Positions 33,610 to 40,765 of a stretch of DNA of 64,000 nt are shown here, piece by piece (position 1 is the stretch's first letter; each line of letters opens with the position of its first letter). Under the pieces are notes generated by a model that saw nothing but the letters and a program-made list of their open reading frames with translations, made no database searches and was not told where the DNA came from. Source of the stretch: Actinomycetota bacterium (GTDB taxonomy: Bacteria; Actinomycetota; Acidimicrobiia; Acidimicrobiales; Ilumatobacteraceae); contig JAPLAA010000126.1 in assembly GCA_026393475.1 (NCBI GenBank), positions 1-64,000 on the forward strand, given 5' to 3'. The position numbers and the translations under genes are program-made.

Positions 33610-34950
33610 TCACAGCGGGGTGTTGTCGTGGGGCCTGGGCTGCAGCTGCTCGCGCTTGTCGACCAGCGCCTCGAGGGCGTGGCCGATCACCGCTCGCGTC
33701 TCGGCGGGCTCGACGACGGCGTCGACGTATCCCCGTTCGGCCGCGATGTACGGGTTGAGCAGCCGTTCGGTGTAGTCGGCCTCGAACGCAGCCCGTTCCT
33801 CGGGTGTGGCCCGCCGCTGCAGGATCGCGGCCGCCTGGCCTGCGCCCATCACCGCGAGTTCGGCCCACGGCCAGGCGATGCACAGGTCGTTGCCCATCTT
33901 CTTGGAGTCCATGACGATGTAGGCGCCGCCGTAGCTCTTGCGGAGGATGACGCAGACGCGCGGCACGGTGGCCCGTCCGTAGGCGAACACCAGCTGCGCG
34001 CCGTGGCGGATCATGCCGCGCCACTCGAGGTCCTTGCCGGGGTAGAAGCCGGGTGTGTCGACCAGGGTGATGATCGGCAGGTTGAACGCATCGCAGAACG
34101 CGACGAACCGGGCCGCCTTCTGGGAGGCGGGGATGTCGAGCGTGCCGGCCAGCGAGATCGGCTGGTTGGCGACGATGCCCACGGGCATCCCGCCGAAGGT
34201 GGCGAACGCCGTCACGACGTTGGCCGCCCACCGGGCGCGCAGCTCGAGCAGGTCGCCGTCGTCGGCGAGCGCGCGGATGACGTCGCGGACGTCGTAGCTG
34301 CCGGTGCTGCTGGCCGGGATCACCGATCCGGCCTCGGGCGTCTCGCGGTCGATCGGGTCGTCGGTGGGGAAACGGGGCGGTTCCTCGTCGTTGTTCGACG
34401 GCAGGTACGACAGGAGCTGGCCCACCATCTCCGTCGCGACCTCGAGATCGGGGGCGACCAGGCTGGCGGCGCCCGTGTAGCGGGCGTGCGACGACGCACC
34501 GCCGAGCTCCTCGTTGTCGATCATGACCCCGGTGAACTCGGCCACCATCGTCGGCCCGCTCACGAACGCATACGAACCTGCCGTCATCACCACCAGGTCG
34601 GCGAGGCCGATCAGCAGCGCCGGGCCGCTGACGGCCGGGCCGTCGACCACCATGATGACCGGGACGACGCCCGAGCAGTCGGCGATCGCCCGTGCCGCGA
34701 GACCCCAACCGTGCAGCGCGGCCAGGCCCTCGGCGATGTCGGCCCCGCTCGACCGGACGATCGCCACGAGGGGGAAGCCCTTCGTGCGGGCCAGCACCGC
34801 GGCCGCCTCGATCTGCGACGACGACACCGACGACAGGGCACCCTGCTTCTCGGTCGCGTCGACGTCGACCCACACCACCGGGCGTCCGTCGACCTCGCGG
34901 ACGTCGGCGGAGACGATCCCGGGCACACGGGCACGGATGGCGAGCGACAT
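33610..34950 (-). CDS. Acyl-CoA carboxylase carboxyltransferase (AccD/PccB family)
   Basis: A 446-residue biotin-dependent carboxyltransferase. The C-terminal half is canonical: LDIPASQKAARFVAFCDAFN, TLVDTPGFYPGKDLEWRGMI, ILRKSYGGAYIVMDSKKMGN and AWPWAELAVMGAGQAAAIL. The N-terminal half has drifted: the usual DSGGARIQEG reads RSSGADIAEG, and about 80 residues normally preceding it are missing, since family members are generally 510-530 long. ATG 34950 is the only good start after a terminator-like hairpin. Substrate (acetyl, propionyl or other) cannot be assigned. No biotin carboxylase subunit gene is nearby. Confidence 0.83.
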   Translation of the reverse strand: MSLAIRARVPGIVSADVREVDGRPVVWVDVDATEKQGALSSVSSSQIEAAAVLARTKGFPLVAIVRSSGADIAEGLAALHGWGLAARAIADCSGVVPVIMVVDGPAVSGPALLIGLADLVVMTAGSYAFVSGPTMVAEFTGVMIDNEELGGASSHARYTGAASLVAPDLEVATEMVGQLLSYLPSNNDEEPPRFPTDDPIDRETPEAGSVIPASSTGSYDVRDVIRALADDGDLLELRARWAANVVTAFATFGGMPVGIVANQPISLAGTLDIPASQKAARFVAFCDAFNLPIITLVDTPGFYPGKDLEWRGMIRHGAQLVFAYGRATVPRVCVILRKSYGGAYIVMDSKKMGNDLCIAWPWAELAVMGAGQAAAILQRRATPEERAAFEADYTERLLNPYIAAERGYVDAVVEPAETRAVIGHALEALVDKREQLQPRPHDNTPL

Positions 34951-34963
34951 GGCGGTCACCCTA

Positions 34964-34991
34964 CTCATCGCGGCCCGCCGGGCCCGATGAG
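34964..34991 (-). terminator. Hairpin between LysR gene and carboxylase
   Basis: CTCATCGCGGCCC pairs with GGGCCCGATGAG around GCC, allowing one bulge. It lies 25 nt after the LysR stop and ends 14 nt before the carboxylase ATG, so it can end the first transcript or fold in the second leader. Confidence 0.55.
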
Positions 34992-35018
34992 CCGAACTGG
35001 TTCAGCCGAACTGGTTCA
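34991..35018. repeat. Two exact 14-bp tandem repeats spanning a stop codon
   Basis: GCCGAACTGGTTCA is repeated at 34991-35004 and 35005-35018. The second copy contains the TGA stop of the LysR gene (minus strand). Its layout resembles the 12-bp repeat at 20966-21001. Confidence 0.8.
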
Positions 35019-35960
35019 GCCGAGGCGGCCGGTACCGAACGGGAAGGCGTCGGCGCCGACGTGCACGCCGGGCTGACGTTCCCCCTGCTTGGAGATGACG
35101 TCGCGCAGCGCCTCGTGCAGCGCCTTGGTGGGGGCGCTGGGCGACGGGCGCTTGCGCTGGACCCAGCCGACGACGCGTCGGGGCAGCTCGGGCACGGCGA
35201 TGCGCTTGAAGTCGCCCTTCAGCCACCGCGGGATCGCGGTGGCAGGCACGATCGCCGCGCCGTAGCCCTCGAACGCGAGCGACGCGAGCAGCCGCACCCC
35301 GTCGATCTCGGCCTGGGCCACGAGCGAGGTGTCGACGGCGCCGCACGCCCGGTCGATGATCCGCCGGAGCGCGGTGCCGGTGGGCGGCAGCAGCAGCGGG
35401 GTGTGGGCGAGGGCGGGCAGCCGGATCGAGTCGTGCTGGGCGAGGGGGTGCTTGTGGTGCGCGAGCAGCACGAGGTCCTCGGCGAACAGGGGGTGCACGG
35501 TGACGTCGACATCGTCGATCGGCAGGTGCACGACGGCCGCGTCGAGGTGCCCGGAGGCCACGCGGGGCACGAGCGCGGTGGTGTTGCCCTCGTGGACGGT
35601 GACGTGGACGCCGGGGTGCACTTTCTCCATATGGGGCAGGAGCTGGGGGAGGAGCCACCGGGCGGTGGTGCCGATCGACCCGAACCGGGCCTCGCCGGTG
35701 ACCTCGTCACCCCGGGAGGCCATGTCGGCCGCGATGTCCTCGAGTTCGTGGAGCACCCGTCGCGCCCGCTCGACCACGACCATCCCCTCGTCGGTGAGCC
35801 CGCCGCGCTGGCGGTCGACGAGGACCACGCCCAGCTCCTTCTCGAGCCGGGCGATGTGGCCGCTGACGTTGGACTGCACCGTGTACAGCGCTCGAGCAGC
35901 TGCAGAGAACGATCCGTGGTCGGCGATCGCCACGAGGGTGGTGAGCTGCCGGAGATCCAT
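35016..35960 (-). CDS. LysR-family transcriptional regulator
   Basis: A 314-residue regulator. The N-terminal winged HTH is standard: MDLRQLTTLVAIADHGSFSA, AARALYTVQSNVSGHIARLE. The inducer-binding domain follows (EARFGSIGTTARWLLPQLLP, HLDAAVVHLPIDDVDVTV). ATG 35960 is chosen over an upstream in-frame GTG because it gives the usual LysR opening. It faces away from the 6C RNA promoter, 36 nt away, and may or may not regulate it. The coinducer is unknown. Confidence 0.92.
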   Translation of the reverse strand: MDLRQLTTLVAIADHGSFSAAARALYTVQSNVSGHIARLEKELGVVLVDRQRGGLTDEGMVVVERARRVLHELEDIAADMASRGDEVTGEARFGSIGTTARWLLPQLLPHMEKVHPGVHVTVHEGNTTALVPRVASGHLDAAVVHLPIDDVDVTVHPLFAEDLVLLAHHKHPLAQHDSIRLPALAHTPLLLPPTGTALRRIIDRACGAVDTSLVAQAEIDGVRLLASLAFEGYGAAIVPATAIPRWLKGDFKRIAVPELPRRVVGWVQRKRPSPSAPTKALHEALRDVISKQGERQPGVHVGADAFPFGTGRLG

Positions 35961-35995
35961 CTCGAAAAACGATACCAAGTATCCGGGATTCCAAC

Positions 35996-36024
35996 TTGAA
36001 AGATCAGTTGTTCACGTGCATACT
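35996..36024 (+). promoter_or_regulatory. Sigma-A type promoter of the 6C RNA
   Basis: TTGAAA (35996-36001), 17-nt spacer, CATACT (36019-36024): four and five matches to the -35/-10 consensus. Predicted transcription start near 36031, ten bases before the first hairpin. The region is much more AT-rich than its surroundings. Confidence 0.7.
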
Positions 36025-36030
36025 TTCACA

Positions 36031-36150
36031 TGTTGATCGAAGCGATCCTTCCCCCAAAGGATCGCTCGACAAGAACCCATGAAGGCGGTTCCCCCAAACC
36101 GCCGGGTTTCGGTTGAGAAGCGCCACTTCCCCCAAGTGGCGCTTTTCCCG
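36031..36150 (+). ncRNA. 6C small RNA (three C-loop hairpins)
   Basis: Three consecutive perfect stem-loops have C-tract loops. Stem 1 AGCGATCCTT/AAGGATCGCT at 36041-36066 (loop CCCCCA). Stem 2 GGCGGTT/AACCGCC at 36084-36103 (loop CCCCCA). Stem 3 AGCGCCACTT/AAGTGGCGCT at 36119-36143 (loop CCCCC), followed by TTTTCCCGTTTT, an intrinsic terminator. C-rich loops are the hallmark of actinobacterial 6C RNA, which normally shows two such hairpins; I recall the mycobacterial 6C (B11) lying next to a HAD-hydrolase gene, as here. Its loops pair with G-rich mRNA leaders. Ends are estimated from promoter and terminator. Confidence 0.85.
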
Positions 36151-36219
36151 TTTTCGGGTTTCGCAGGATTCCTCACCACACCTGTTTCCCCACGTCAGCG
36201 GCTGCCGTAGTGTGCCTGC

Positions 36220-37740
36220 ATGGCGACGGCGACGCCGCGTGGAGCGGCCTTCTTCGATCTCGATCGCACCCTGCTCGCCGGGGCGTCCGGTGAGGTCTTC
36301 TCGCACGCGATGAAGGCGGCCGGGCTGGTCAGCCGATCGATCCCCGGCGAATCCCTGCTGTACAAGGTGTTCAACACCGTCGGCGAGACCCTGCCGTCGA
36401 TGGCGCTGGCCCGCCAGGGCGCGGCGCTCGCCAAGGGCAAGTCACGGTCGGCCGTGCAGCGTGCCGCCGAGATGGCCGCCCCCGACCTCGCCGCACTCGT
36501 CCAACCGCTGGCCGCCGGACTGTTCGCCGAGCACCGTGCCGCCGGGCGGCCGATCGTGCTCGCCACGACCACGCCGTTCGACCTGGTCAAGCCGCTCGCC
36601 GACATCCTCGGGCTCGACGACGTCGTCGCCACCCGCTACGGCGTGAACGCCGACGGCACCTACGACGGCACGATCAGCGGGCCGTTCGTCTGGAGCGCCG
36701 GCAAGCTCGCCGCCGTGCGCGACTGGGCCGAGCGCAACGGCGTCGACCTGGCGCACAGCTTCGCCTACAGCGACAGCGTCTACGACACGCCGCTGCTCGC
36801 GTCGGTGGGCAAGCCGTTCGTCGTGAACCCCGACCCGCGCATGATCCTCGTGGCGGCGGCCCGCCGCTGGCCGGTGCTCGACCTGTCGGGCAGGAAGGGC
36901 GCAGCTGCCGGGGACGCCGGTGACGGTGAGATCGACACGCATCAGCAGTACGAGAGGCACGAGGGGAACGAGGGGCACGGCATGGCGAAGATCCCGGTGG
37001 TCAACCTCGAGATCCAGCGTCTCGCGCTCAGCTTCACGCACCCGGTCTTCTTCCCGTACGCGAAGTTCGACATCGCCGGCACCGAGCACATCCCGGCCAG
37101 CGGCCCGGCGATCATCGTCGGCAACCACCGCAGCTACTTCGACGTCGCCGCCATGGCGCTCACGATCGCGAAGACCGAACGGATGGTGCGCTTCCTCGGC
37201 AAGAAGGAGGTGTTCGACGCTCCGATCATCGGCCAGATCGCCAGCGCGATGGGTGGCATCCGCGTCGATCGCGGCACCGGCAGCGACGAGCCGCTCCAGG
37301 CCGCCGCCGAGGCGCTGCGCAACGGCGACATGGTGGCGATCATGCCCCAGGGCACGATCCCGCGGGGCAAGGCGTTCTTCGATCCCAAGCTCAAGGGACG
37401 TTGGGGCGCGGCACGGCTGGCGGCCCTCACCGGTGCGCCCGTCATCCCGATCGGGCTGTGGGGCACCGAGAGGGTGTGGCCTCGGTCCGCACGGCTGCCG
37501 AACCTGCTCAACCTCGTCGACCCGCCACAGGTGCGGGTGCGTGTGGGAGCGGCCGTGCCGCTCAAGCACAAGGATCCCGACGCCGACACGAAGAAGATCA
37601 TGAAGGCGCTGATGGAGTTGCTGCCGCCGGAGAGCCGTACCAAGCGTGAGCCCACCGAGGCCGAGCTGCTCGCGTCGCTGCCGCCCGGCTACAAGGGCGA
37701 CCCGACCGCCGAGGTGAAGCGGCGCCCCGGCAAGGACTGA
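36220..37740 (+). CDS. HAD-IB hydrolase fused to lysophosphatidate acyltransferase (PlsC)
   Basis: A 506-residue two-domain protein. Residues 1-225 form a HAD-IB phosphatase: AAFFDLDRTLLAG with the nucleophile Asp, TTTPFDLVKP, and AYSDSVYDTPLL. Residues 250-470 form a PlsC acyltransferase: AIIVGNHRSYFDVAAMAL with the HX4D motif, MGGIRVDRGTGSD and AIMPQGTIPRGKAFFDPK. Together they could make phosphatidate and remove a phosphate, or act on lyso-phospholipids; such fusions are known in actinobacteria. ATG 36220 follows the 6C RNA terminator by about 70 nt. The C-terminus is rich in Lys and Pro. Membrane-associated through the acyltransferase part. Confidence 0.9.
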   Translation: MATATPRGAAFFDLDRTLLAGASGEVFSHAMKAAGLVSRSIPGESLLYKVFNTVGETLPSMALARQGAALAKGKSRSAVQRAAEMAAPDLAALVQPLAAGLFAEHRAAGRPIVLATTTPFDLVKPLADILGLDDVVATRYGVNADGTYDGTISGPFVWSAGKLAAVRDWAERNGVDLAHSFAYSDSVYDTPLLASVGKPFVVNPDPRMILVAAARRWPVLDLSGRKGAAAGDAGDGEIDTHQQYERHEGNEGHGMAKIPVVNLEIQRLALSFTHPVFFPYAKFDIAGTEHIPASGPAIIVGNHRSYFDVAAMALTIAKTERMVRFLGKKEVFDAPIIGQIASAMGGIRVDRGTGSDEPLQAAAEALRNGDMVAIMPQGTIPRGKAFFDPKLKGRWGAARLAALTGAPVIPIGLWGTERVWPRSARLPNLLNLVDPPQVRVRVGAAVPLKHKDPDADTKKIMKALMELLPPESRTKREPTEAELLASLPPGYKGDPTAEVKRRPGKD

Positions 37741-37771
37741 CCCGGTCCCGGTCTGCCGGGTCGGCCGGGTC
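37739..37771. terminator. Nested hairpin between converging lipid genes
   Basis: GACCCGG (37739) pairs with CCGGGTC (ending 37771), and inside it CCCGG-TCTG-CCGGG forms a second stem. It covers the entire 29-nt gap and both stop codons. Confidence 0.6.
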
Positions 37772-38552
37772 AGACCCGCTTGGGCGGGCGGGGGATGAAC
37801 GGCGAGGTGCGCTCGATGTACTCCTGGTAGCCGGCGCGGCGCTTCACGATCGTCTTCTCCAGGAACGTCACGCCAGACACCCGCCGCAGCAGCACGGTCA
37901 TCACGACGGCGCCGATCAGACCGATCGCACCCGTGCCCGTCTCGGCGGCCACGAGGGCGATGCCCCACCAGACACAGCAGTCGCCGAAGTAGTTGGGGTG
38001 GCGGGTGTACTTCCACAGGCCACGGTCCATCACTTTCCCGGCGTTCGCGGGGTCGGCCTTGAAGCGGGCGAGCTGCGCGTCGCCGACGACTTCGAAGAAC
38101 ATGCCCACGAGCCAGACCACCACGCCGATGATCGCGATCACGCCGATGTCGGGGGTGTCGTCGGTCTGGCCGATCTGCACCGGCAGCGACACGATCCACA
38201 TCAGCACGCCCTGCAGGCCGAACACGGTGTAGAGGCTGATGATCGGGAACTTGGGGCCGTGGTGCTTGCGCATCGCCCTGTAGCGGTAGTCCTCGCCGTG
38301 GCCGAGGTTGCGCCACGCCAGGTAGCCCGCGAGCCGCAGCCCCCAGATCGTCACCATCGCGACGAGCAGCCATCCGCGGGCGGCGTCGAGTTCGTCATCG
38401 GCGGTGAGGCGCACCGTCCAGGCCACCACGACGAAGCCGAAGCCCCACACGATGTCGACGATCGATGCGTTCTTGATCGCGAGGCTGATGCCCCACGTGA
38501 CGAGCATCAGCACCACGATCGCGAGGGCGGCGGAGAGCATGGCGGTGGGCAT
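37770..38552 (-). CDS. DUF1295 membrane protein (steroid 5-alpha-reductase-like)
   Basis: A 260-residue protein with about six membrane helices (MLSAALAIVVLMLVTWGISL, WLLVAMVTIWGLRLAGYLAW, IGVIAIIGVVVWLVGMFFEV). The C-terminal signature RGLWKYTRHPNYFGDCCVWW, with YQEYIERTSPFIP, marks the DUF1295/ICMT-like family, which includes reductases or methyltransferases acting on lipids or sterols. ATG 38552 follows GAGG; ATG 38540 is an alternative. It lies 26 nt after the downstream end of the acyltransferase gene, so both probably share one mRNA. Confidence 0.88.
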   Translation of the reverse strand: MPTAMLSAALAIVVLMLVTWGISLAIKNASIVDIVWGFGFVVVAWTVRLTADDELDAARGWLLVAMVTIWGLRLAGYLAWRNLGHGEDYRYRAMRKHHGPKFPIISLYTVFGLQGVLMWIVSLPVQIGQTDDTPDIGVIAIIGVVVWLVGMFFEVVGDAQLARFKADPANAGKVMDRGLWKYTRHPNYFGDCCVWWGIALVAAETGTGAIGLIGAVVMTVLLRRVSGVTFLEKTIVKRRAGYQEYIERTSPFIPRPPKRV

Positions 38553-38578
38553 GTGGCCTCGAAGGTGGAGTGTGCGGG

Positions 38579-39577
38579 TCAGACCCGACTGAGCGTGGAT
38601 TCGGACAGCAGTGCGTCGACGGCCCGATCGGCGTCGAGCCAGCGTTCGTCGAGCCAGACCGTGAGGGCCGGCACGTCGTCGGACGAGGGTACGTCGTCGC
38701 GGGGGACCCGGGTCGCAGCGAAGCGCACCCGGGGTGCGCCACGGGCGAGCGAGCGGAGGATCCCGCCGAAGGTGTCGAGCCCTTCGAAGCCTGTGTGCCA
38801 CGCGATCACCACGTCGCTGGTGGGCGAGCCGGCGAGCAGCGCTGCCGTGCCGGCGGGTCGTGGCGGCAGCAGGTGTCGCAGCCCGGCGAGGCGCGCGGCC
38901 CGCGCCGGGTCGCGCTCCGCGATCCGCTCGAGCGCACGGGCCCGCTTCGCCTCGGCCGCCCGGGTGCCCTCGGGGAAGATGATCGCCACGTCGTCGGGGC
39001 CGAGGCCGTCGGCGAGCGCGGTGAGCGCCGACAACTCGCCCGCCGAGTCGGCGGCGTCGCGGTCGAGGAAGTGGTTGGGCAGGCGATGACCGACGACGTC
39101 GAGGCACGGGTCGGCCAGGAGCTCCCGCTTCAGGACGTACCGCGGCTGCTTGCCGGCGAGGCTGGTCACCACCCACGCGCTGACGAGGGAGTCGGCGAGG
39201 CTGGCGTGCCGGCAGAGCAGCACGACGGGACCGGGTGAGAGCGACTCGACACCGGCGACCTCGATCGTCAGGCCGGTGGTGCGGCGCAGCACCCTCATCA
39301 GGTTGGCCGCCCACCATCGCTGCAGCGCGTAGTGGCGGCGGTGATCGCGGCCCCGACCCGTGAGCCAGAGCCACGTCGCCGCCACGACGCCGGTCGTCTC
39401 GAGCCAGCTCCATCCCAGTGCGAAGGCGAGCAGGCGGGCGGTGGGCACTCGTGTGCGGCCACGCACGAGATCGGCGAGCACGGCGAGCGGCACCCACACG
39501 GGCAGGAGAAGTGTGAGCGCGACGGCGGCGATCACCAGGAGCGGAATGCTCGTCAGTCGGCGTCTCGCCGTCCCCAC
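38579..39577 (-). CDS. PlsC-like 1-acylglycerol-3-phosphate acyltransferase
   Basis: A 332-residue acyltransferase. An N-terminal hydrophobic region (LLVIAAVALTLLLPVWVPLA) anchors it. VVLLCRHASLADSLVSAWVV carries the HX4D motif, and PNHFLDRDAADSAGEL and VAIIFPEGTRAAEAKRARAL complete the active site. It resembles the large LPLAT family rather than the bifunctional protein upstream. GTG 39577 is my start; the sequence TAACGT eight bases before it would suit a -10 element of a leaderless mRNA. An in-frame start at 39670 is possible. Substrate lipid unknown. Confidence 0.8.
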   Translation of the reverse strand: MGTARRRLTSIPLLVIAAVALTLLLPVWVPLAVLADLVRGRTRVPTARLLAFALGWSWLETTGVVAATWLWLTGRGRDHRRHYALQRWWAANLMRVLRRTTGLTIEVAGVESLSPGPVVLLCRHASLADSLVSAWVVTSLAGKQPRYVLKRELLADPCLDVVGHRLPNHFLDRDAADSAGELSALTALADGLGPDDVAIIFPEGTRAAEAKRARALERIAERDPARAARLAGLRHLLPPRPAGTAALLAGSPTSDVVIAWHTGFEGLDTFGGILRSLARGAPRVRFAATRVPRDDVPSSDDVPALTVWLDERWLDADRAVDALLSESTLSRV

Positions 39578-39767
39578 GGGTGGGTACGTTACGCGGTGTC
39601 CGGGCAGCGTGCGTGCTGGAGCGGCCGTCGGACCCGAGCGGTGATCGCATCGGGCAGCGGCGCACCCCAATCGTGCCGCGTCGTCTCGCCTCCCGGACGT
39701 CCGGCGCCGCCGCCGGACGTTTCACGAGATCTCGCCCGAGCGTGCGAATCGCACCCCGACACGACCG

Positions 39768-39789
39768 CCTACCGACCGGTAGGTAGACT
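39768..39789 (+). promoter_or_regulatory. Palindromic operator abutting -10 of the desaturase gene
   Basis: CCTACCG-AC-CGGTAGG at 39768-39783 has perfect 7-bp arms. It is followed immediately by TAGACT (39784-39789), a good -10 element seven bases before ATG 39797. A repressor bound here would block RNA polymerase. The shape is typical of TetR-family operators controlling fatty acid genes; the regulator is not in the window. Confidence 0.5.
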
Positions 39790-39796
39790 GAGGATC

Positions 39797-40765
39797 ATGA
39801 ACGAGGTCCAGCTCCTCCACGAACTGACCCCGGTGGCCGCGCAGTTGACGGCACGCCACTACGAGACCTGCAAGCCGTGGTACCCGCACGAGTTCGTGCC
39901 GTGGAGCCTCGGCCGCGACTTCGTCGAGGGTGAACAGTGGGACGCCCGCGAGGTGCCCCTGCCCGACTCGGTCCGCAGCGCCCTGTTCGTCAACCTCCTC
40001 ACCGAGGACAACCTGCCGTACTACTTCCGCGCGATCGACCGCATGTTCGGCCGCGAGGGCGCCTGGCGCGAGTGGTCGCACCGTTGGACCGCCGAGGAGG
40101 CGCGTCACTCGATCGCCCTGCGCGACTTCATGACGGTCACCCGGGCCATCGACCCCCGTGCGCTCGAGGACGGCCGGATGAGTCAGATGTCGGGCGGACA
40201 GGTGCCCGATCCCGACAGCGCCGTCGACGGCTTCGTGTACGTCGCCCTGCAGGAGCTCGCCACCCGCATCGCCCACCGCAACACCGGCAAGGCGTTGCAG
40301 CAGCACCTCGGCGGCCATCCGGTCGGCGAGGCCGGCTACGAGGTCATCAGTCGAGTTGCGGCCGACGAGAACTTCCACTTCCTCTTCTATCGCGACCTCA
40401 CCTCCGCGGCGCTCGAGATCGCCCCGTCGCTCGTGCTGCCGGCGATCGAGCGCCAGGTGCGCGAGTTCGAGATGCCCGGCACCGGCATCCCGGGGTTCAA
40501 GAAGCACGCCGAGGCGATCGCCCGCGACGGCCTCTACAACCTGCAGCAGCACCACGACCAGATCCTCCAGCCGGTGGTCGTGCGCTGGTGGAAGATCGAG
40601 TCGCTCTCCGGGCTCACCAGCGAGGCCGAGCAGGCCCGCGATGCGGTGCTCGACCGCATCACCCGCATCGGTGTCGCCGCCCGTCGGCTGGCCGACCGCG
40701 CCCTCGAGGCGGCGGAGCGTGCCCGCACCGCCATCGCCGGGCCGACGGCAGCTCCCGCCGTCTGA
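39797..40765 (+). CDS. Acyl-ACP desaturase (diiron, fatty acid desaturase 2 family)
   Basis: A 322-residue soluble diiron enzyme introducing a double bond into acyl-ACP chains. The iron ligands are visible: Glu in SHRWTAEEARHSIALRDFM (EEARH) and ADENFHFLFYRDLT (DENFH). MNEVQLLHELTPVAAQLTAR is the expected N-terminus. The plant and mycobacterial DesA proteins have the same layout. ATG 39797 lies only about eight bases after the predicted -10, so the mRNA is nearly leaderless. A TetR-type palindrome covers the promoter. Nearby acyltransferases support a role in membrane lipid composition. Confidence 0.93.
   Translation: MNEVQLLHELTPVAAQLTARHYETCKPWYPHEFVPWSLGRDFVEGEQWDAREVPLPDSVRSALFVNLLTEDNLPYYFRAIDRMFGREGAWREWSHRWTAEEARHSIALRDFMTVTRAIDPRALEDGRMSQMSGGQVPDPDSAVDGFVYVALQELATRIAHRNTGKALQQHLGGHPVGEAGYEVISRVAADENFHFLFYRDLTSAALEIAPSLVLPAIERQVREFEMPGTGIPGFKKHAEAIARDGLYNLQQHHDQILQPVVVRWWKIESLSGLTSEAEQARDAVLDRITRIGVAARRLADRALEAAERARTAIAGPTAAPAV

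Follow-up and report, generated by a model that had tools for sequence, protein, structure and literature searches.

A predicted C-loop small RNA paired with a divergent LysR-type regulator in the Acidimicrobiales

Results

Genes and signals at the locus

The window analyzed here is a 64,000-nt stretch from an uncultured Ilumatobacteraceae bacterium (assembly GCA_026393475.1, contig JAPLAA010000126.1, positions 1 to 64,000 of the forward strand). A gene for a LysR-type regulator lies at 35016-35960 on the minus strand (Pfam LysR_substrate 138.5 bits, HTH_1 67.4 bits), divergent to a predicted C-loop small RNA (sRNA) at 36031-36154 on the plus strand. The conserved LysR start is the ATG at 35960 (MDLRQL); the longest frame begins at a TTG at 35978, inside a palindrome, and this is not the conserved start. 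The palindrome, GATACCAAGTATC (35971-35983; GATA-N5-TATC), is located between the LysR start and the RNA, exactly 12 nt before the -35 element, and is centred at about -54 relative to the predicted RNA start, making it a candidate upstream operator site for LysR. The -35 element TTGAAA (35996-36001, plus strand) and the -10 element CATACT (36019-36024, plus strand), separated by 17 nt, form the sole promoter-like site in 2.8 kb, with 0.1 expected.

On the other side of the RNA, a gene for a HAD-IB hydrolase fused to a PlsC-type acyltransferase (36220-37740, plus strand; Pfam HAD 92 bits, Acyltransferase 90 bits) begins 66 nt after the T run. A lipid-related cluster at 33610-40765 comprises a carboxyltransferase, this HAD/PlsC fusion, a second PlsC-like acyltransferase and a desaturase-like protein. 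A carboxyltransferase stands behind LysR in several families, and the coding neighbours (carboxyltransferase, PlsC domain) point to acyl-CoA and phospholipid metabolism. Antisense inside the desaturase-like frame, positions 40097-40164 (minus strand) match the TB sRNA ASdes of Rfam at 45.2 bits (gathering 40), a match that may reflect coding conservation only.

Three C-loop hairpins and their covariation

An earlier note, made from the sequence alone, had described three hairpins with loops of five C and a TTGAAA-N17-CATACT promoter, and both were confirmed by repeat search and promoter scan; its proposal of a C-loop sRNA with its own promoter is likewise supported. Hairpin 1 (36037-36069, plus strand) is a 10-bp inverted repeat with loop TTCCCCCAAA and its C5 run at 36051-36055. 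Hairpin 2 (36073-36109, plus strand) presents the same loop, with C5 at 36091-36095, on a 7-bp inner inverted repeat, and carries an extra 6-bp outer stem, GAACCC/GGGTTT, that pairs 36073-36078 with 36104-36109. Hairpin 3, which occupies 36111-36154 (plus strand) including its tail, is a 14-bp repeat reaching to 36149 with loop TTCCCCCAAG and C5 at 36129-36133, followed by CCCGTTTT. The three stems had been called perfect; the inverted repeats were found, but the third stem holds one G-U pair. Its shape makes hairpin 3 a probable intrinsic terminator, as had been claimed, although an atypical one because most of the U run lies inside the stem, and a simple terminator scan did not flag it. The RNA had been thought to stop at 36150 and probably reaches the TTTT at 36151-36154; counted from the start predicted by the promoter, its length is 124 nt. 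The fold energy is -65.9 kcal/mol (z = -8.1), and none of 200 shuffles was as good.

The RNA is single copy in its own genome (covariance model match of 143.8 bits). Using blastn, and leaving out chance-level matches, the locus was found in about 25 of 36 sampled relatives of the same family, at identities down to 68%. A covariance model (R1) was built from ten loci and 36 matches were then realigned, four of which are short or doubtful extra matches that were omitted from a 32-row version. Compensatory changes on both sides were present in 31 of 40 pairs of the 36-row alignment, which is fitted to the structure, and 96.3% of its pair cells were standard; this level of covariation was reached in 0 of 500 shuffles, and sliding the partners by 1-3 columns gave far lower values. 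The ten-sequence alignment, which is unfitted, gave the same picture, with compensatory change in 18 of 40 pairs. Stem covariance among relatives had been set beforehand as a refuting test, and the stems passed it strongly. By element, compensatory change was seen in 10 of 11 pairs of hairpin 1, in all 13 pairs of the two stems of hairpin 2, and in 8 of 16 pairs of hairpin 3, where 98.7% of cells are paired. As judged from comparative sequence analysis, covariation among the Ilumatobacteraceae relatives is proof of the predicted three-hairpin fold, and we regard the locus as a real structured C-loop small RNA.

The least variable parts of the RNA are the C runs and GGTTGAGA, which lies before and in the stem of hairpin 3 and is invariant in 25 sequences. 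Upstream, 25 family members show strong conservation of GCATACTTTCAC at the -10 element. Loop 1 contains six C in some relatives.

A LysR partner across the order

Of 198 Acidimicrobiales genomes, 158 have one clear LysR ortholog. The divergent side was read for 90 LysR genes from 45 families, and hairpins whose loop holds at least five C (C5+) were counted within 330 nt. At least one such hairpin was present at 65 of the 90 loci (58 of 83 outside Ilumatobacteraceae), compared with 5.5% of shuffles, 2 of 90 reverse strands and 9 of 240 other stretches; two or three were present at 30 of 90 loci versus 0 of 240 control stretches. Counted by family, 38 of 45 have a C5+ hairpin and 37 have the operator as well. 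This strict count misses cases that are visible by eye (L156, L165, L168, L183). Hairpin number ranges from one to three and C residues per loop from five to nine, and the last hairpin is usually the longest and terminator-like. The third C loop, which the earlier note set against the two hairpins of the usual 6C model, is not confined to this locus: relatives carry one to three hairpins, and an Rfam-valid 6C locus outside mycobacteria (L199/L041, 66.9 bits) also has three C-loop hairpins, of which Rfam models only two.

Against a strict pairing, about one quarter of the LysR loci are without a C-loop RNA. In genomes G408 and G383, C-loop double hairpins occur away from the LysR ortholog (L088 and L090, respectively) and the LysR loci have no C-loop hairpins; the RNA may have moved in these two genomes. 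The closest solved relative of the LysR protein is OxyR, but the LysR protein scores 130 bits with the NCBIfam OxyR model, far below the cut-off of 329.

The upstream palindrome is conserved along with the RNA. GAT-N7-ATC occurs in 68 of 90 LysR loci versus 2% in shuffles, and in 58 of these 68 a TTG follows after 11-12 nt. The cross-family consensus, aatGATg.cAc.tATC-N6-AACTGtTgGACaGAT, consists of this palindrome and then a second one over the -35; the second palindrome, CTGTTGGACAG, contains the -35 element in other families. Information is high at positions 19-33 after the palindrome start, which were not fixed by the search pattern. Such a pair of sites, the first upstream and the second over the -35, is the classic layout for activators of the LysR type. 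Palindrome and C-loop sRNA occur together at 63 of the 90 loci, one without the other at 5 and 2, and neither at 20, counts in which related genomes are not independent. The combination of palindrome, spacing and TTG occurs once in this genome and not at all in the reversed control, and of five test genomes with AACTGTTGGACAGAT, four have it at this locus only. The locus has the layout of a LysR-controlled sRNA, with a conserved divergent LysR gene and a palindrome at a fixed distance upstream of the promoter. We consider this order-wide pair of LysR and C-loop sRNA the stronger finding at this locus.

Relationship to the 6C RNA

The earlier note had assigned the RNA to the 6C family. When the Rfam 6C covariance model (RF01066; gathering score 47 bits) was run, it gave no match at gathering over the window and none at E<=10 on the locus; nor did it match this locus in a search of the RNA's own genome, or reach gathering in six family members. 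The usual 6C model has two hairpins with six or more C in the loop, whereas this locus has three hairpins with five C each.

Gene order had been cited as matching that of mycobacteria, and true 6C loci from 24 actinobacterial genomes were taken for comparison. In a first look at synteny, the window HAD had the 6C-side HAD as its top or near-top match in five genomes. At the 6C loci of mycobacteria and streptomycetes, however, the HAD gene, where adjacent, is divergent and upstream, and it is a different paralog. The HAD/PlsC protein beside the present RNA shares only 35-39% identity with the 6C-side HAD, whose closest relatives in Acidimicrobiia are separate genes at 50-54% identity; no C-loop RNA was found beside these orthologs. 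Synteny was rejected as proof of 6C homology since the Acidimicrobiia own a closer ortholog of the 6C-side HAD elsewhere, and the two neighbourhoods differ because both HAD orientation and paralog differ. In one mycobacterial genome (L032), Ms1 RNA lies at 63-363 on the minus strand, about 1.1 kb from 6C.

That the RNA is a strongly diverged 6C/B11 descendant, inherited from an actinobacterial ancestor with its neighbouring genes rearranged, is nonetheless a realistic minority possibility. Both RNAs follow the same plan within the same phylum, with C-loop hairpins of which the last is the terminator, and both lie near a HAD-IB gene. With the 6C model, two further families of the order reach 34 bits, below the gathering score, and 6C loci reach 10-24 bits with model R1. 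Against descent stand the lack of any 6C match in Ilumatobacteraceae, the different paralogs and opposite orientation of the two HAD genes, and the different divergent partner. The cross-scores between R1 and 6C were rejected as homology evidence and are not diagnostic, because ordinary terminators (L081, L082, L086) reach 26-32 bits with R1; weak order-level covariance model matches that were mere terminators were removed by eye.

A stand-alone RNA or a leader of the downstream gene

At 29 of 65 C-loop loci, a HAD gene lies immediately downstream. In the other 36 no HAD gene is present within 900 nt or within the stretch examined; what follows instead is, for example, a Mur-ligase-like gene or one on the opposite strand. 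With its own promoter, a terminator by shape and no fixed downstream gene, the RNA has the features of a stand-alone transcript, and its HAD/PlsC neighbour is probably outside its function. We consider it unlikely that the locus is instead a cis-acting leader in which hairpin 3 attenuates HAD/PlsC and the LysR promoter drives the whole unit. The 66-nt spacing and the 29 loci with HAD downstream would fit such a leader, as would the typing of 6C as cis-reg by Rfam and the C-loop hairpin found in whiB leaders of sister orders; but the 36 loci without HAD speak against it, the conservation of up to three exposed C loops goes beyond an attenuator's need, and we saw no competing pairing able to disrupt hairpin 3.

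whiB behind the same promoter block in sister orders

In other orders of the class (L236-L248), a LysR homolog with 35-41% identity is present, and the palindrome and -35 block are kept in nearly all of the 13 loci read. The gene behind the LysR-side promoter there is whiB (Pfam WhiB 56.6 and 49.5 bits in the two tested), and a single C-loop hairpin lies in the whiB leader in seven of the 13. In Acidimicrobiales, the sRNA occupies the promoter slot that whiB holds in these orders. Because whiB stands behind the same block, LysR did not evolve solely to serve the sRNA; the shared arrangement suggests that the sRNA may have taken over a whiB promoter.

The whiB relatives of Ilumatobacteraceae are elsewhere in the genome, some with G5 ribosome-binding sites. 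G5-G6 runs complementary to the C loops overlap or lie close to the ribosome-binding site of five whiB-like genes (L277, L278, L280, L281, L285), which come from Ilumatobacteraceae and one further family. G5 precedes 4 of 12 whiB starts versus 3.8% of genes (p = 0.0016), an enrichment that is post hoc, involves related genes and is only a lead. A speculative scenario, to which we give low odds, is that in the Acidimicrobiales ancestor a LysR-controlled whiB promoter was turned into one for a free sRNA, with the same signal now reaching G-rich ribosome-binding sites through C loops, perhaps among them those of whiB mRNAs elsewhere in the genome.

Discussion

We propose, with a probability of roughly 70%, that the locus encodes a LysR-controlled, stand-alone C-loop sRNA acting on G-rich ribosome-binding sites. 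Transcription, LysR binding, the sign of control and the targets are all things that we infer from conserved sequence. The divergent LysR-type protein would sense a signal, bind the GATA-N5-TATC palindrome upstream of the sRNA promoter and switch the sRNA on. The three C-rich loops would then serve as single-stranded seeds, the UUCCCCCAA loops pairing with G-rich ribosome-binding sites and lowering translation of several mRNAs, while hairpin 3 would additionally terminate transcription. Among 296 predicted genes, G5 runs per kb number 1.9 in leaders, 1.1 after stops and 0.4 in coding sequence, a weak trend that depends on crudely assigned starts.

In M. marinum, B11 (6C) has three stem-loops, two of them C-rich, its targets have G tracts near the ribosome-binding site, and a role of loop 3 was shown by mutation (PMC12395582). 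In M. abscessus, either C loop of B11 is sufficient on a G6 tract (PMC10470900). Since either loop suffices there, the third loop of the present RNA may by analogy provide redundancy or higher capacity and not a new site.

RNAs that titrate proteins, such as CsrB, typically carry an identical loop motif several times over. The C loops of the present RNA could accordingly be read as a sponge that binds a protein and not mRNA. We judge this improbable. The C run is kept but the flanking loop residues differ (TTCCCCCAA, ACCCCCCA, TCCCCCCC), a pattern that suits pairing with G runs more than a protein site of fixed sequence, and the closest studied C-loop RNAs base-pair with G tracts (PMC12395582, PMC10470900). 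A reading of the locus as fortuitous hairpins or as a small protein gene could point to short ORFs in some frames; it is refuted by the covariation counts, and no reading frame within the RNA is conserved among 32 sequences.

If the proposed reading is true, an RNA family with strong covariation that is absent from Rfam release 15 exists in a large, mostly uncultured actinobacterial order, and this family would gain a named regulator and a candidate operator. To our knowledge, the transcriptional switch is known for few sRNAs of actinobacteria; here conservation alone offers a putative one. Our findings further suggest that 6C-type C-loop sRNAs extend beyond what the Rfam model covers. One promoter block that precedes whiB in sister orders and an sRNA in this order also offers a case in which it could be possible to follow how an sRNA arose. 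A literature search for LysR with a small RNA in Acidimicrobiia found nothing.

Comparison with known systems

Like the 6C RNA (B11, or ncRv13660c, in mycobacteria), the present RNA comes from Actinomycetota, has C runs in its hairpin loops and appears to use its last hairpin as a terminator. It differs from 6C in having five C per loop and not six or more, a second, outer stem on hairpin 2, the conserved GGTTGAGA at the terminator stem, and a divergent LysR gene with a palindrome in place of a divergent HAD-IB gene. C-rich hairpin loops are also shared with ar14 (RF02344) and other CCUCC-loop sRNAs of Proteobacteria. The ar14 model gave the best sub-threshold Rfam score on the locus, at 27.4 bits against a gathering score of 58.8; these RNAs belong to another phylum and have UCCUCC loops, unlike the UUCCCCCAA loops here.

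In OxyR/OxyS and GcvA/GcvB of enterobacteria and VtlR/AbcR2 of alphaproteobacteria, a LysR-type regulator adjoins the sRNA that it activates. Papers on LysR-sRNA pairs of this kind include PMC1557403, PMC3658693 and PMC7486931. The present locus resembles them in that a LysR-type regulator adjoins an sRNA, which it would presumably activate, and differs in that the RNA is unrelated and the LysR protein falls under the NCBIfam OxyR cut-off. Our best reading is an sRNA that would be arranged like OxyR/OxyS or GcvA/GcvB and would act like 6C/B11.
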